Shown piece after piece: positions 9,384 through 25,326 of a stretch of DNA of 31,303 bases. Numbering within the stretch: position 1 is the first letter of the stretch; every line of letters begins with the position of its first letter. This DNA is from a virus. A model generated the notes under the pieces. The model did not search any database, was not told the origin of the DNA, and saw only the letters and a list, made by a program, of their open reading frames with translations. The translations under genes and the position numbers were made by a program. Location: positions 1 to 31,303 of the IMG/VR virus record IMGVR_UViG_3300034418_001057. One strand, 5' to 3'.

Positions 9384-9917
9384 TTATGCTCGTTTCTTCT
9401 TAGACTTAGGTGTTTCAACTAGGTCATTCGCAACCTCAGTCGCGATGCCCAACATCGCATCCATGTCTAGCAACTCTTGCGGAATGTCTACCTCCTGTTG
9501 AGGGACGTTCTGCGATCCGTAATGATAACCAACAGGCGCACCATACGGTGTATAGTGCTCGCCATGTGCATCGAACCATGCGGCTTGCAAGTCTCGGTAC
9601 ATATCGTCAAGTTGTTCGTGCTTGAACTGCGCGGCTTGGGCGGCTCCGAATGAGCCACGTATCCGCTGCGTACTGATCTCAGTACCATCGAACAACTTGC
9701 GATCTGCCTCGTAACGCTTCTTCTTGTTGGCAGCGTTGACTTCTGTGTCGATGCCATTCTTGCCGCCATAGCGTAAGAAGTAGAGGCCATCCATCATCTT
9801 CTCCATCAGTACCTTGCGTACAAAGGACATCTCATCGTGCGGCAAGAAGTCTTTAGTCTCATAATCGAAACGGTCGTACTCGAAGCTAAGTTCATTAATC
9901 ATTGTAGCGATAGTCAT
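9384..9917 (-). CDS. Hypothetical protein, first leftward gene beside the divergent region
   Basis: A 177-residue protein. The ATG at 9917 has AGGAG seven bases upstream; the longer frame from 9950 lacks support. The N-terminal half is charged and helical (MTIATMINELSFEYDRFDYE and onward; VRKVLMEKMMDGLYFLRYGG). The middle has AAQAAQFKHEQLDDMYRDLQ, then a Tyr/Gly/Pro-rich stretch (YTPYGAPVGYHYG), and it ends in a basic tail PKSKKKRA. No family recognised. It is a single-gene unit with its own terminator, closest to the divergent intergenic region, which is where an early-expressed regulator or host-takeover protein often lies. Confidence 0.7.
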   Translation of the reverse strand: MTIATMINELSFEYDRFDYETKDFLPHDEMSFVRKVLMEKMMDGLYFLRYGGKNGIDTEVNAANKKKRYEADRKLFDGTEISTQRIRGSFGAAQAAQFKHEQLDDMYRDLQAAWFDAHGEHYTPYGAPVGYHYGSQNVPQQEVDIPQELLDMDAMLGIATEVANDLVETPKSKKKRA

Positions 9918-10000: not shown

Positions 10001-10430
10001 ACGACGACACATCTTGCATGTGTCGCCAGCTTGCTGGTGAGCGGCTACGTTGCGTCAACTTGCTTGACGCTACGTTCAAAGTCATCGTTTACTTAGCTGA
10101 AATACGGTGGCCCAACTGGAAGTTAAAATACAAAGATTGTGTGTGATAGAGAGATACATCTTCGACAAGGTGTGGTTGCGCTCAGGCACCATAGTGGCAG
10201 GTATACGGTATCAGCGACAGGGGCGATGATAGCGTATAGATGCCGCCCTTCTGTCTAGATACAGTCAGGAGTGGACGAGCTTTGTGTAAACAAAGTCGGG
10301 AGTGTATGACTGTATCCCAGTTAGAAGTGGATGCGCAGACCACGGCGCGGAGAGGATAGGCAGAGCGTATTCCACAAGAATGCACAGTATGCGCACTGCT
10401 TGGGCAAAGAGGGGTCAACCCCCTGTTTGC
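10001..10430 (+). ncRNA. Candidate structured RNA region, multiple plus-strand hairpins
   Basis: This is most of a 715-base gap without a convincing gene. Stems: CGACACAT/ATGTGTCG (10005-10025, loop CTTGC); CCAG-CTTG-CTGG (10026-10037); GCGTCAA/TTGACGC (10052-10070, loop CTTGC); ACATCTT/AAGGTGT (10156-10173, one G.U); GACAGGGGCG with CGCCC-TT-CTGTC (10216-10255, two-base bulge); a long hairpin at 10258-10316; CAAAGAGGGG/CCCCTGTTTG (10405-10429, one mismatch). In 10258-10316 a perfect 10-bp stem encloses GGAGTGGA facing GGAGTGTA, then a CGA-(G)-CTTTGT stem with GTAA loop. G.U and G.A appositions and CUUG/GNRA loops fit the plus strand only. No clear promoter or terminator T-run was found, so ends are approximate. 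Confidence 0.5.
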
Positions 10431-10435
10431 ACAAA

Positions 10436-10462
10436 TGACGCCACGTCACTTTGAATGTGACG
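10436..10462. promoter_or_regulatory. TGACG half-site cluster
   Basis: TGACG-CCA-CGTCA (10436-10448) is a palindrome, and CGTCAC (10444-10449) with GTGACG (10457-10462) makes a second inverted pair. The core TGACGCYACGT also occurs at 9277 and 10066. Two TTGACA hexamers follow at 10475-10480 and 10486-10491, without a good -10 at 17 bases. Confidence 0.5.
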
Positions 10463-10504
10463 TAGGGTAACTACTTGACACACTATTGACAAAAGACGCA
10501 GTGT

Positions 10505-10524
10505 GGGGGGGATCATAGGGGGGG
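10505..10524 (+). other. Paired G7 tracts, possible G-quadruplex
   Basis: Seven G (10505-10511), ATCATA, seven G (10518-10524). Each tract can supply two GGG runs, so one intramolecular quadruplex is possible on the plus strand. It lies 110 bases before the terminase small subunit; another G-rich run (GGGGTGGGGGGG) starts just after that gene at about 11007. Confidence 0.5.
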
Positions 10525-10564: not shown

Positions 10565-10633
10565 GTCCATGGACTCTGGTCTATAAACATATGGACTAGG
10601 GTTCATGGATAGTCCATGGACAAGGGTCTATAA
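10565..10633. repeat. ATGGAC half-site array ending at the terminase small subunit start
   Basis: GTCCATGGAC occurs at 10565-10574 and 10612-10621, each followed three bases later by GGTCTATAA (10578-10586 and 10625-10633). A third ATGGAC lies between at 10591-10596, and GGACTA pairs with TAGTCC across 10593-10615. The last copy contains the AAGGG ribosome site and the A of the ATG. It may be an autoregulatory operator or a packaging recognition site. Confidence 0.7.
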
Positions 10634-11007
10634 TGAACTTAGAAAATAGAAAATTAACAGAGAAACAGCTCGCTTTGGTGGATACACTTGTAGCTACAGG
10701 GTGTTCAGTGCGTCAAGCTGCTGAGTCGGCTGGATATGCTCAAGGCGAATCAGGAAGGGTAAGTGCGCACAAAGCTTTAGCTCAACCACATGTGCAACAG
10801 TATATGATGCAGAGGGTGAGTGAGCAATTGGGAATGAACGCTACCGTTGCGGCTGCTAAAGTTCTAAAGCTTGCAACAGGTGCTAGATCAGAGCATGTTC
10901 AGCTTGAAGCGAGCAAGGATATTCTAGATCGCGCTGGGTTTAAGCCTATAGATAGATCGCAGGTGCAAGTTGCTGGAGACATCAAAGTTTCGATAGACCT
11001 TGGCTAG
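10633..11007 (+). CDS. terS: Terminase small subunit
   Basis: A 124-residue protein; AAGGG precedes ATG by about seven bases. Residues 8-50 (LTEKQLALVDTLVATGCSVR, then QAAESAGYA) form the N-terminal HTH typical of small terminases, with a helical centre (HKALAQPHVQQYMMQRVSEQ) and a segment SEHVQLEASKDILDRAGFKP near the C-terminus that is common in this family. The small subunit recognises the packaging site and regulates the large subunit. It is the first rightward gene, about 1.5 kb before terL, and the repeat array immediately upstream could be its binding site. Confidence 0.82.
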   Translation: MNLENRKLTEKQLALVDTLVATGCSVRQAAESAGYAQGESGRVSAHKALAQPHVQQYMMQRVSEQLGMNATVAAAKVLKLATGARSEHVQLEASKDILDRAGFKPIDRSQVQVAGDIKVSIDLG

Positions 11008-11868: not shown

Positions 11869-12101
11869 AGGCTCCGCAGAAATCACTGCTTAATTGGGGA
11901 AAGCAAAAGTGGCGCACTAAGTCTGGCAAGAAGTCTAGTGAAACTGGTGAGCGTTACCTTCCTAGCAAGGCTATTGCTGCTCTTAGTGATTCTGAATATG
12001 CAGCTACAACCAGAGCTAAACGAGAGGGCAAGGCAGCGGGTAAGCAGTTTGTGGCTCAACCGAAAGAGATTGCTCGGAAAGTAAAACAGTATAGGACATG
12101 A
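11865..12101 (+). CDS. Basic protein, DUF5872-like
   Basis: A 78-residue protein. The pattern WGKQKWRTKSGKKSSETGER, then YLPSKAIAALSDSEYAATTR and AKREGKAAGKQFVAQPKEIA matches the DUF5872 type: a W..Q.W.T.SGK segment followed by RYLP..A...LS..E.AAT.RAK. Members occur in phages and giant viruses; their biochemical role is unknown to me. It overlaps the previous gene by four bases. Confidence 0.75.
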   Translation: MKAPQKSLLNWGKQKWRTKSGKKSSETGERYLPSKAIAALSDSEYAATTRAKREGKAAGKQFVAQPKEIARKVKQYRT

Positions 12102-12102
12102 C

Positions 12103-12327
12103 ATGGCATGGTATTTAACAAGTGGTGAACTCTATACTGGCGAGACACATGAGCTTGCTGGTACGACATATAGCGGTAAGACGAGAACGCCTGACTCGCG
12201 CCGCTTGGTGGAAGGGCCAGAACCAACACGTTCTCGAAGCTCCAAAGGACGATTGAAGGCAGACGACCCTTCCACTCCTGATGTTAATGAGGCTTATTCT
12301 AAGCCTAAGGCCAAGAAGAAAAAATGA
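12103..12327 (+). CDS. Small protein with TY.G.TH motif, basic C-terminus
   Basis: A 74-residue protein with AGGA seven bases before ATG. The N-terminal half repeats a short beta motif (MAWYLTSGELYTGETHELAG, then TTYSGKTRTPDSRRLVEGPE) and the second half is disordered and charged, ending KPKAKKKK. I have seen this type among marine phage genes next to terminase, but it has no known function. It overlaps the next gene by four bases. Confidence 0.65.
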   Translation: MAWYLTSGELYTGETHELAGTTYSGKTRTPDSRRLVEGPEPTRSRSSKGRLKADDPSTPDVNEAYSKPKAKKKK

Positions 12328-12524
12328 GCTTTATAAATACTTTGAAGCAAGAAGAACTGACAATGCTTCGACGCATTGTTAAGTCCATTCACTTTCAGTA
12401 TTTTGATCAGAAGCACGGCAAATCTTTTGTGACCAATAAGATGTTAGACAATGTGATTGAGAACATTGGGCCAGAGGCGGCTGAGAAAATGATTCGTCGC
12501 GGGGTAGATAAGGGGCTTCAATGA
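12324..12524 (+). CDS. Small helical protein upstream of terL
   Basis: A 66-residue protein whose ATG overlaps the previous stop (ATGA). It is helical, with KQEELTMLRRIVKSIHFQYF, a YFDQKHGKSF turn and an EKMIRRGVDKGLQ end. No family recognised. Its stop overlaps the terL start by four bases, so the two are translated together; its conserved place next to terL would suggest a packaging or head role. Confidence 0.6.
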   Translation: MSFINTLKQEELTMLRRIVKSIHFQYFDQKHGKSFVTNKMLDNVIENIGPEAAEKMIRRGVDKGLQ

Positions 12525-21635: not shown

Positions 21636-22240
21636 TGGAAGCTTTCGGAAATATGTTCAGCAATTTCTTGAACATTGGCATGTCATTCTGGAACAGCACA
21701 TCTACACTTGCGATGGACATGTACCAGATGGACACAATGTCCAAGATGGGTCAGCTAAAAGTTGATGCACTTCTTAGCGCTGCCGATGCTCAAATGGAGC
21801 AAGCCGAGCTTCAAGCTAAAGAGTATGAGATTGAGCGCAAGGCATCAGCGGTACAAGCGTCACAAACATATGCGCAACGTATGGCTGAATACTCAGAAGC
21901 TACTGAGTTTAACAGCTTTGTTCGAGAGAGTTTACTCGGCGGTGGTGAAAGCATGAGCGTTAATGCATTCGTCAGACGACAGGCAGAGATGGTTGCTGAA
22001 GATGCAAACAGAATAAACAGTCAGGCTATTGCTGTTGATTCCGCTTTAGCTAGAGAAGGACACATGAGTTTGTTGCGTGGGATTAATGCTGCAAGAGCAA
22101 CACGAAACCAAGCGCTTCAAACTGCATACCAAAATACAATTGATCTTCTTCAAGTCTCTGATCCTATTAGTACAGGTATTGGGATAGCCAAAGACGTTAA
22201 GAAGATTTTTACCACTATCCGTGACTTTAGGAATCCTTGA
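21635..22240 (+). CDS. Internal virion protein B-like (T7 gp14 position)
   Basis: A 201-residue protein. The N-terminus has an apolar, membrane-active-looking segment (MEAFGNMFSNFLNIGMSFWN), followed by a long Ala/Gln/Glu-rich helix (QMEQAELQAKEYEIERKASA and onward) and a helical C-terminus (IGIAKDVKKIFTTIRDF). Size, alpha-helical composition and place after the nozzle gene match the gp14-type core protein that helps form the ejection channel in the outer membrane. Assignment rests on position and composition rather than a sharp motif. Confidence 0.7.
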   Translation: MEAFGNMFSNFLNIGMSFWNSTSTLAMDMYQMDTMSKMGQLKVDALLSAADAQMEQAELQAKEYEIERKASAVQASQTYAQRMAEYSEATEFNSFVRESLLGGGESMSVNAFVRRQAEMVAEDANRINSQAIAVDSALAREGHMSLLRGINAARATRNQALQTAYQNTIDLLQVSDPISTGIGIAKDVKKIFTTIRDFRNP

Positions 22241-22242
22241 AA

Positions 22243-25200
22243 ATGAAGCCAGTAGTAAAGCAACGAACCGAGTTCTTTAACAAGCCTATTGGCGTCACTT
22301 CTATCCGCACTGGCGAGCCAGAAATGTGGCAAAGCATAGCTGCATCAGCGGATGCTAGATATAGAGATGCTTATCAATACAATGCTGAACGAGCAAAGCA
22401 GAAGGGTGAGGAGCAAGCGGCTGCTGTCCCGACTAAAGACTTGTTTGTTATTGATCCTAATACTCAGAAGCCTGTTGCGCTAGAGCCACCACGCAGCTTT
22501 GGAATGATTGGTCGCCAAGCGTATCAAAACCTTATTAGCCGTAGGTTTGAGGAATCAATTCAGGCTGAACTTGAAAGTAAAGCGCAAGAATATGCGCAAA
22601 AGTATCCTAGCTCTGGCACATTTCAACAAGAGTTTGCGCGACACATAGAGAATATGGTTGCCCCATCTATGGATGACTCTGGTGAGATGAGCGCATATGG
22701 TCGTGTCATCAATGAACTTGGTGCTGAGTATCTTGCGTCAACTACTGCTGCTATGAAGAAGCGGGAAGCTGAGATTGCCAAAGCTAAACTTAAGCGTCAC
22801 AACCAAGTTACTAGGTACACCAATAGCCGCAAGGCAGTGATCATGGCTGCGGAAGGTGATATAACTGGCGCACGATTGCTTCTTGAGGAAGAATATCATC
22901 GTGTTTCAGAAGAATTTATGGCAGGTGAAGTTCCGTTTAGCGAATATACCAAAGTACAAGATCAGATTGATGGGCTTGAATCTTTAGTATCGACAAACTC
23001 TCTGTCCAAATATTACGTTGAGAATGATGACATACAGGCTCAGATTGTTCTCGCTATCCAAAATCCAGCGTTCAAAGAAAAGCTACCGCCAGAAATTGCT
23101 AAGCAAATAGAAACTGCGTTGCTTACAACGACACCAACTAATCTTGTTAGTGCGTTAGAGTCGTTTGATAAGAGCATGGATGAGTATCTAGACAAACAGA
23201 TTGAGATTGCTCGAAACAATTATCTTAGCAACATCAATCGAACAACAACTATTGCTGATATTGATAGGACAATTGTTTCTGTGCCTGATACTATAAAGCC
23301 AGAAGTCCGATCCGATCTTATTATTGAGGCTGCAACTCAGAGAATACATGGAAGCATTAGTGAAATTGGTGACGTTGGCCCTCTTGCTGACGAACTTCTT
23401 AATGTATCTTTCAATGATACCGATGCACTGACGAAAGTTTTAGGCAAAGAGTTTGTTGCTGAGTTAAGAGAGCTATCGTTTGAAGAACGAGAAACCATTG
23501 CCAAAGGCATCAACGCTCGTAGTTCTGCTTTAAATAATCAGCGTTCAGAAGAACAAAGATTTCTTAAAAACGCATTTGACGCTCAAATTATAGACATTGC
23601 TGACAATAAAACTTACAGCATTGAGGGGCGAATTGCTAAATCAAATGAAGTTATCGCTCAGATTCAGGCATCTAACTTCGACAATAAAGCATCTAAGATT
23701 GATGCGGTGCAAGCTGCTACTGCACAGGCTTTGCAAAATCAAGTAGACCTTAGATTCATGAGTGGCTCTGAGCTTGAGTATTTATCAAGTTTAATCAGAA
23801 CAGGTGATACTCCTAGTTCGGTTTCTTATCAAAGAATCACTGGACTAAAGACAGATGGCAAAGTGCCGAATGATTTTATGGTTGCATACGAAGCCATGAG
23901 ATACTCAGCAAGCATTAATCGCACTACTACTGAGTCAAAGATTGAATCTGCTAAAAAAGGCGTTACTGACTATTACAATAGATTAGTTTCTGACAATACT
24001 ATTGAAAGAAGTAAGCAAGCTGTTGCTGGCGGTTATGCAACTCAAGATGATATTGAAAGGTTAGATAAGGAATACTTTAACGGTATGAGTATTCCATTAG
24101 AGCGTCTGATTAATGACACTCGGGTAGTAGAAGCTGCAACAAAAGGTGTAATATTTCCTACGTTTGCCAAAGCTATTTACAGCAACTTTGCAGGTGGTGA
24201 TTCTAAGAAGTCAGCTTTGGCCTTACAAACATTTGCTGAGTACCAGCTTGCCGAGGCAGTCGTTGATGGACAGTCAATACAATACAATCTAATGCGCAAG
24301 TCACTTGATCCAATGCAATATGGCATGATGGATGCTGCGCTTGCTGCTGTAAATGTGATGGGTGTTAGCCCTGCTGAGTTCTCAGTGCGCCAACAAACTT
24401 ATGCACAAGATGGTGGCAATATCTTTGACGATGTTAAAGCTGATTTAAATGTGCCAAAAACTAGAAACATCTCTACTGCATTTGATGCTTTAGGTATGAA
24501 TATTAGTCCTAAGTTTAAAGAAGAACTTCAGGGTGCATTGATTGCCCGTAAGGTTATGGGAATGCCTGTGACTGAAGAAGGGCTTGAGTCATTTGTTGAT
24601 GAGTATGTTTCATCTATGAATATGACTGCTGATATGTTTGTTATGGCTCCAACTATTGATGGCATGTCTCAGTATTCAAGATTTTCTTGGATGAATACAA
24701 ACGACATGTCTGCAATGAGAGAGCAAGTAATTGGTGCAATAGCTGATGCGCCAGAATATCAACGTATGTTTACTGGTGGTACATTCTTAGATGCGGCGGT
24801 TGAGATATTTATGCAAGCGGTGCCTGGGCGTAATGCAATTGCAATGTTGCGTGAGCAAGAAGATGTGATTGCAAACCTTAACACTGACCGTGAAAAAACA
24901 ATGAAGATGATGCAGATTCTTGGTGTTGATGTTCACTATCAGCCTGTGGTCGAAGCATTTGAAAACGGACAGCCAGCATATCGTGCTGGGTTTAAGACTA
25001 CAGATGGTCGGTTTGAGCCGTTCACAGTAAACAATGAGTTTGTTATTGTGTCTCCACCTGCGCCAGACGAAACAACTGGCTCACTTCTTTTCCAACAAGT
25101 AAACAATAGGGCAAGAATACTAGCTGTTACTGGTGAAGATTACAGCCGTATTGCTGATCCAAATACTAGAATTGCTTTAGCTAGAACAGACGTGCGCATT

Positions 25201-25326
25201 CAGCAACTTCGAGGGCAGCAACAAACCCTTGAGGATTTCCAAGCAAATCCACAGCTATTCCAAGAGCTAACAGAATTGCTTGAAGGTACTGGTGTATCTC
25301 TTGAGGAAATAATCAATGGAAATTAA
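22243..25326 (+). CDS. Internal virion protein C-like (T7 gp15 position)
   Basis: A protein of about 1027 residues. The ATG at 22243 is preferred; a TTG at 22237 overlaps the previous stop and cannot be excluded. It is almost all alpha-helical and polar, rich in Glu, Gln, Lys and Asp, with no transmembrane segment and no enzyme motif seen. Such large helical proteins make the core stacked on the portal and are ejected into the cell ahead of DNA. It is larger than T7 gp15 (about 750) and overlaps the next gene by 11 bases. Confidence 0.75.
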   Translation: MKPVVKQRTEFFNKPIGVTSIRTGEPEMWQSIAASADARYRDAYQYNAERAKQKGEEQAAAVPTKDLFVIDPNTQKPVALEPPRSFGMIGRQAYQNLISRRFEESIQAELESKAQEYAQKYPSSGTFQQEFARHIENMVAPSMDDSGEMSAYGRVINELGAEYLASTTAAMKKREAEIAKAKLKRHNQVTRYTNSRKAVIMAAEGDITGARLLLEEEYHRVSEEFMAGEVPFSEYTKVQDQIDGLESLVSTNSLSKYYVENDDIQAQIVLAIQNPAFKEKLPPEIAKQIETALLTTTPTNLVSALESFDKSMDEYLDKQIEIARNNYLSNINRTTTIADIDRTIVSVPDTIKPEVRSDLIIEAATQRIHGSISEIGDVGPLADELLNVSFNDTDALTKVLGKEFVAELRELSFEERETIAKGINARSSALNNQRSEEQRFLKNAFDAQIIDIADNKTYSIEGRIAKSNEVIAQIQASNFDNKASKIDAVQAATAQALQNQVDLRFMSGSELEYLSSLIRTGDTPSSVSYQRITGLKTDGKVPNDFMVAYEAMRYSASINRTTTESKIESAKKGVTDYYNRLVSDNTIERSKQAVAGGYATQDDIERLDKEYFNGMSIPLERLINDTRVVEAATKGVIFPTFAKAIYSNFAGGDSKKSALALQTFAEYQLAEAVVDGQSIQYNLMRKSLDPMQYGMMDAALAAVNVMGVSPAEFSVRQQTYAQDGGNIFDDVKADLNVPKTRNISTAFDALGMNISPKFKEELQGALIARKVMGMPVTEEGLESFVDEYVSSMNMTADMFVMAPTIDGMSQYSRFSWMNTNDMSAMREQVIGAIADAPEYQRMFTGGTFLDAAVEIFMQAVPGRNAIAMLREQEDVIANLNTDREKTMKMMQILGVDVHYQPVVEAFENGQPAYRAGFKTTDGRFEPFTVNNEFVIVSPPAPDETTGSLLFQQVNNRARILAVTGEDYSRIADPNTRIALARTDVRIQQLRGQQQTLEDFQANPQLFQELTELLEGTGVSLEEIINGN

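Follow-up and report, generated by a model that had tools for sequence, protein, structure and literature searches.

A covarying rod-shaped RNA upstream of terS in marine podoviruses, a candidate leader of the packaging and late transcript

The window analyzed here, a stretch of 31,303 nucleotides of viral DNA (IMG/VR record IMGVR_UViG_3300034418_001057), carries portal, capsid, terminase, and tail genes that identify a podovirus-type phage. Its nearest cultured relative is the Pelagibacter phage EXVC031P Hodr, with 64 to 65% protein identity for the portal and the large terminase. Among the window proteins searched, the recombination proteins Erf, exonuclease, and RusA were recognized, but none fell into a family of RNA or DNA polymerases, primases, or helicases. 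A search for tRNA and tmRNA genes returned none, and a 1,029-residue protein of the tail region (22237 to 25326, plus strand) matched neither PHROG nor Pfam entries at E 0.001. The structure that we describe is located in some 0.7 kb of noncoding sequence, bordered on one side by a divergent early gene of 177 codons (9384 to 9917, minus strand) and on the other by terS, which encodes the small terminase subunit and is the first gene downstream (10633 to 11007, plus strand; PF03592, phrog_2538). This arrangement is constant, with terS located 3′ of the rod in 50/50 contigs long enough to tell.

A hairpin had been predicted at positions 10258 to 10316 of the plus strand, and its sequence proved correct base for base. 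The outer stem is a perfect 10-bp helix (10258 to 10267 with 10307 to 10316), followed by an 8×8 non-canonical helix formed by GGAGTGGA (10268 to 10275), whose AGYG core is kept, and GGAGTGTA (10299 to 10306). The apical hairpin is made up of CGA (10276 to 10278) paired with TCG (10296 to 10298) and CTTTGT (10280 to 10285) paired with ACAAAG (10290 to 10295), leaving a bulged G at 10279 and a GTAA terminal loop at 10286 to 10289. The minimum free energy fold of the plus strand reproduces this structure exactly (-27.1 kcal/mol, z -3.2, with 1/200 shuffles as good). The minus strand of the same region likewise folds well (z -4.9). Folding energy alone was discarded as proof of the hairpin, as several coding windows reach similar z-scores. 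It is the comparative evidence, i.e., covariance-model matches and covariation added to the fold, and not the energy, that makes us accept the hairpin as a real conserved structure.

Rather than a complete element, as first described, the 59-nt hairpin is only the tip of a rod-shaped RNA domain that spans positions 10158 to 10357 of the plus strand. The plus strand of this region folds into a single rod (-82.8 kcal/mol) closed by a stem between ATCTTC (10158 to 10163) and GAGGAT (10352 to 10357), and this base stem covaries in relatives, where it reads ATCTGT/ACAGAT, ATCAGC/GCTGAT, or ATCGCT/AGCGAT. The 5′ arm of the rod has an extra hairpin in this phage (10194 to 10246, plus strand) that is absent from locus L083, which has 28 nt instead of 84 at the insertion in spite of 94% identity just upstream; the rods of relatives without such an insertion are about 145 nt long. 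The rod is preceded by an unpaired conserved leader, TTGTGTGTGATAGAGAGATAC (10136 to 10157, plus strand; alignment A2), which runs from the putative transcription start to the rod, and is followed by a conserved hairpin with a GTCAA loop (10400 to 10434, plus strand) found at the same position in L083, L116, and L130. Only one open reading frame of at least 60 codons crosses the rod; it is on the minus strand and starts with TTG (10182 to 10418). We informally judged a coding role unlikely, given the indel-rich rods of relatives.

To collect homologous loci, viral contigs were scanned for the block CCCAACTGGAAGTTA-N-TGTGTG that precedes the rod, which yielded 56 related viral contigs representing 35 distinct sequences. 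The covariance search proposed with the original prediction was performed with a model of the tip, R1, built from seven sequences and run on 94 loci (809 kb). It returned 21 matches, with E-values from 6e-22 to 7e-3, every one of them at the homologous site and strand, and they included clades not represented in the seed. In the tip alignment, standard pairs fill 90.3% of the pair cells, compared with 70.7% after shuffling and 25 to 39% when the alignment is slid, and the covariation score is 0.397 versus 0.120 for shuffled and at most 0.070 for slid controls. The compensatory stem changes on which the prediction had staked the hairpin were found, 13 of the 19 tip pairs being altered on both sides. 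These covariation counts are not independent, since some changes are common to related sequences, and the alignment had been fitted to the model; even so, the slid control, together with how many versions of the stem occur, keeps the conclusion safe. The outer stem occurs as GATACAGTCA/TGACTGTATC, as GCAATGGCAT/ATGCGATTGC (with one G.G opposition), as GGCAATTGCT/TGCAATTGCC, and in other forms, and the rods aligned clade by clade contain pairs with two or more Watson-Crick types. As judged from these alignments, the tips keep their fold while their stem sequences change. The hairpin belongs to a structured RNA family and is not an artifact.

The purine-rich internal loop has exactly the eight oppositions that had been listed for it, and the idea that it stacks as a non-canonical helix is supported by comparison. 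In six distinct loops of the A/B type, opposition 3:6′ is always A.G and 6:3′ always G.A, 4:5′ is G.U, A-U, or G-C, 5:4′ is U.G or C-G, and 2:7′ is G.U, A-U, or U-A in five of the six. Because the oppositions vary as pairs, with covariation at 4:5′ and 2:7′, we interpret the loop as helical, with wobble and purine-purine pairs, which makes it a clear example of a symmetric non-canonical helix backed by covariation. An AGTG/AGTG or AGCG/AGCG core is present in the window and in L198, L177, L184, L195, L083, L095, and L097, and clade E retains AGCG opposite AGCG. The corresponding site is shorter or paired otherwise in clades C and D; the 8×8 motif is, on this sampling, a clade feature. The bulged G is invariant across 18/18 distinct rows of alignment A3, and the combination of G bulge and CUUUG/CAAAG tip is near-universal, a variant of clade C (L109, L116, and L197) having CGAUG-CUUGC. 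The GNRA cap, on the other hand, did not hold up as a conserved feature: it is confined to a few sequences, and relatives have CTAA, CCAA, CAAA, TAAA, or ATAA loops.

The prediction had also stated that the structure makes sense only as plus-strand RNA. The consensus folds of five clades contain 128 G-U versus 6 A-C cells on the plus strand and 58 G-U versus 24 A-C cells on the minus strand, and two other rod families lean to the plus strand as well (28 to 2 and 14 to 2). All 30 rods have a better fold energy on the plus strand, although base composition explains much of this difference in several clades; the strand call therefore rests on the mismatch asymmetry. The rod is very probably a plus-strand RNA, as this wobble asymmetry favors, but “only” was an overstatement because the minus strand folds well.

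Related phages devoid of the window-type sequence usually have a stable but unrelated fold in its place. The strongest 150-nt fold 5′ of terS beats a coding control from the same genome in 51 of 55 distinct loci, with mean energies of -60.7 kcal/mol upstream of terS and -45.9 kcal/mol in the coding control. At least two other rod families, each with its own conserved tip, are found there. One of them, in L144, L159, L161, L070, L046, and L148, has a three-way-junction tip upstream of terS, in which a CGCC..GGCG hairpin is followed by CTTG and then by AAGTTCGCAAGG..CCTTGCGAACTT. In Hodr, too, the site folds into a stable rod, which shows no sequence similarity. In that genome (L224), the rod lies between divergent genes at 12037 to 12373 and contains CCTCCTTTGG/CCAAAGGAGG, so that its closing stem holds the Shine-Dalgarno-like AGGAGG of both directions. 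Its record, OQ414635, is named EXVC031P Hodr and has EXVC032PBaldr locus tags, likely a public labeling mix-up. A blastn search of cultured phages gave no match, and no GTDB genome was found with the promoter-block pattern.

The divergent 177-residue protein belongs to a very diverse family with no Pfam, PHROG, or NCBIfam match and ends in a lysine-rich tail. Modeling from close relatives only was poor (pLDDT 38). With eight diverse members, the AlphaFold model reached a pLDDT of 74.6 and showed a beta-hairpin and long helices, with no named fold and a resemblance to uncharacterized caudovirus proteins only. The divergent gene came from one cluster (35 members) for 32/32 distinct rods of the window type, while F1 rods occur mainly with a different cluster. 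The rod type thus tracks the type of the divergent gene, not terS, and near-identical terS flanks are shared by different cassettes (L155 versus L165).

Upstream of the rod, a conserved block, CCCAACTGGAAGT-TAAAAT (10111 to 10129, plus strand), in which the palindromic AACTGGAAGTT is followed by a -10-like TANNAT, is the putative promoter of the RNA. TANNAT is complete in 31/34 sequences and its A is present in 34/34, the first TA being imposed by the search pattern; no recognizable -35 accompanies it. The RNA would be expected to start near 10136 from this putative promoter. In 28/28 loci, the stretch from the block to terS was found to lack an intrinsic terminator. The region between the rod and terS contains TGACG palindromes, a TTGACA sequence, and a G-rich block. 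The palindromes, of the TGACGTNNCGTCA type, and TTGACA (10475 to 10480) together cover 10438 to 10480 and are a probable operator and a -35-like element. The G-block of the window, GGGGGGGATCATAGGGGGGG, is at 10505 to 10524 on the plus strand. In 80 distinct loci, it comprises two G-runs, each six to eight residues long and 5 to 11 nt from the other, the commonest form being the mirror-symmetric GGGGGGAGAGAGGGAGAGGGGGG, 31 to 155 nt 5′ of terS. TTGACA is 30 to 32 nt upstream of the G-block in 77 of these 80 loci, none of which has a canonical -10 there. The G-block could serve as a G-quadruplex or R-loop element, or it could form the start region for a late promoter. At the G-block position, contigs L014/L124 and L145 start with long C homopolymers, probably assembly artifacts generated from the G-runs. 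We discarded the idea that the genome ends or has a cos site at the G-block, as the contig breaks fall at differing bases, partly in C homopolymers, and look like an assembly problem. Right before terS, two perfect GTCCATGGAC palindromes (10565 to 10574 and 10612 to 10621), 47 nt apart and each with GGTCTATAA a few bases further on, are likely operators, acting on a terS promoter peculiar to the window phage. Inverted repeats of the TTGACGC-ACGT/TGACGT type, which recur in related loci, flank the rod (10047 to 10075 and 10438 to 10470) and are probable sites for one phage regulator.

No Rfam family matched at the gathering threshold or at E up to 5. The statement that no such element was known is thus borne out for both the hairpin and the rod, and by the criterion of Rfam matching the rod represents an RNA family without counterpart. 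The phage-encoded GOLLD and ROOL RNAs are similar in being structured and without assigned function, but they are longer than 600 nt, against about 200 nt here, and have a different gene neighborhood; no pseudoknot was seen in the rod, and the GOLLD and ROOL models did not match it. The put RNA of phage HK022 acts on the β′ zinc-binding domain of RNA polymerase. The rod resembles it as a presumed leader RNA of a phage, placed between a promoter of the host type and the genes that it serves, and folded with non-canonical pairs and bulges. However, put comprises two adjacent stem-loops of about 70 nt in total, with putR acting in cis from about 270 nt past its start (PMC9378689), whereas all clades here have one long rod of about 145 to 200 nt. 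A put-type layout, in which the RNA is made downstream of a promoter on the strand of the genes served, may apply to our locus, where the plus strand is favored, a -10-like block is present, and no terminator was found.

Because of its position, its strand, the lack of a terminator, and a tip that looks like a protein site, we tentatively favor the interpretation that the rod represents a new type of structured RNA, the leader of the rightward packaging and late transcript, with a protein-binding tip and an action on transcription. Transcription would start near 10136, right after the conserved TANNAT block, and proceed through the short unpaired leader and the rod into terS and the packaging and late genes without meeting an intrinsic terminator. 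A protein would dock at the tip, where the bulged G sits in a short CUUUG/CAAAG hairpin atop the A.G/G.U/U.G/G.A helix, and the RNA would act in cis, either on the host RNA polymerase that transcribes it or on the late-gene factor of that enzyme. The outcome would be an RNA-based control of the early-to-late switch, comparable to nascent put RNA in manner, not in architecture. As no polymerase, primase, or helicase family was detected among the proteins searched, it is the host RNA polymerase that must be managed. The parts of this proposal differ in strength: the structure, its covariation, its location, and the synteny are established, the plus strand and the lack of a terminator have support, and the promoter, the docking of a protein, and the effect on transcription are inferred. 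That the rod is a cis leader of the terS transcript is an evenly balanced proposition. With the second promoter-like element, TTGACA, terS may be transcribed from a promoter of its own, in which case the rod could be an RNA by itself, and the link between rod type and divergent-gene type implies that the rod may instead serve the divergent gene or its product. Action on RNA polymerase itself is doubtful. The rods of related phages differ wholly in sequence, which contact with a conserved polymerase would not predict. Translation control of terS, one of the roles proposed originally, is unlikely at a separation of 317 nt from the start codon, and the sequence analysis gave no positive evidence for the two others, a packaging RNA and a decoy.

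6S RNA binds the σ70 holoenzyme and templates product RNAs. A rod cut from the transcript might similarly work in trans on RNA polymerase, or as a decoy for another host protein, a reading that we consider unlikely and less likely than a leader RNA. The length of the rod and its interrupted helices do fit 6S RNA, itself a rod of about 200 nt with such helices (PMC8876501), the bulged-purine tip is typical of protein sites, and the rod has no coding potential. Nevertheless, the 6S model (RF00013) stayed below its gathering threshold with no match up to E 5, and the rod has no large open central bubble, its largest symmetric loop being the 8×8 one near the tip that is closed by covarying non-canonical pairs; the missing terminator and the invariable place 5′ of terS also speak against a trans-acting RNA. 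Another reading is an RNA-protein pair, in which the divergent protein binds the rod and both form one cassette that regulates the early genes or itself. Although the shared inheritance of rod and divergent gene, the swapping of cassettes before near-identical terS flanks, and the lysine-rich tail argue for it, such a pair is distinctly unlikely: neighboring genes would be inherited together even if their products did not interact, the protein cluster includes three members with other rods, and the predicted fold matches no RNA-binding protein.

In ColE1-like replication, a primer RNA forms a persistent hybrid that is cut by RNase H to prime synthesis. The rod could by analogy be a structured RNA that enters the G-block and persists as an RNA-DNA hybrid, like ColE1 RNA II or the mitochondrial CSBII transcript, both of which are structured or promoter-proximal RNAs followed by a G-rich block. 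The G-rich block is on the non-template strand, about 340 to 475 nt past the putative promoter in the loci compared, the window combines recombination proteins with an apparent lack of replication enzymes, GC skew turns at the rod/G-block region, and the CSBII transcript is a precedent for a hybrid at a G-rich block (PMC6317783). We nonetheless regard a primer as improbable, as GC skew tracks gene direction too, the fixed distance to TTGACA suggests that the G-block is part of a promoter, and there is no sign of a replication start at the rod or G-block. Still more improbable is an element for RNase III processing and stability of the late mRNA: a long, irregular double-stranded stem in the leader whose sequence varies freely while pairing is kept would suit it, but RNase III has no need for the invariant bulged G, the CUUUG/CAAAG tip, or the AGYG/AGYG helix, which are the best-conserved parts. 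Finally, it is scarcely credible that the rod serves packaging, be it as an RNA or as a DNA-level site. The rod does lie directly 5′ of terS/terL and, like phi29 pRNA, is a phage RNA near packaging functions, but it did not match the pRNA family, the packaging motor of the phage is an ordinary TerS and TerL one, and the wobble asymmetry indicates RNA rather than folded DNA.

More broadly, it is conceivable, if speculative, that many marine podoviruses have fast-changing rod RNAs at a fixed place before terS, swapped together with the divergent gene and read into a conserved two-run G-block, that constitute an unrecognized RNA switch for late expression or replication start. The rod adds an RNA family without Rfam counterpart to phages common in marine metagenomes, and it marks a place at which early-to-late control or the start of replication can be tested in a small podovirus in which no polymerase genes were detected. 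Hodr, which is cultured and has a stable rod at the same place, may serve as a test system.
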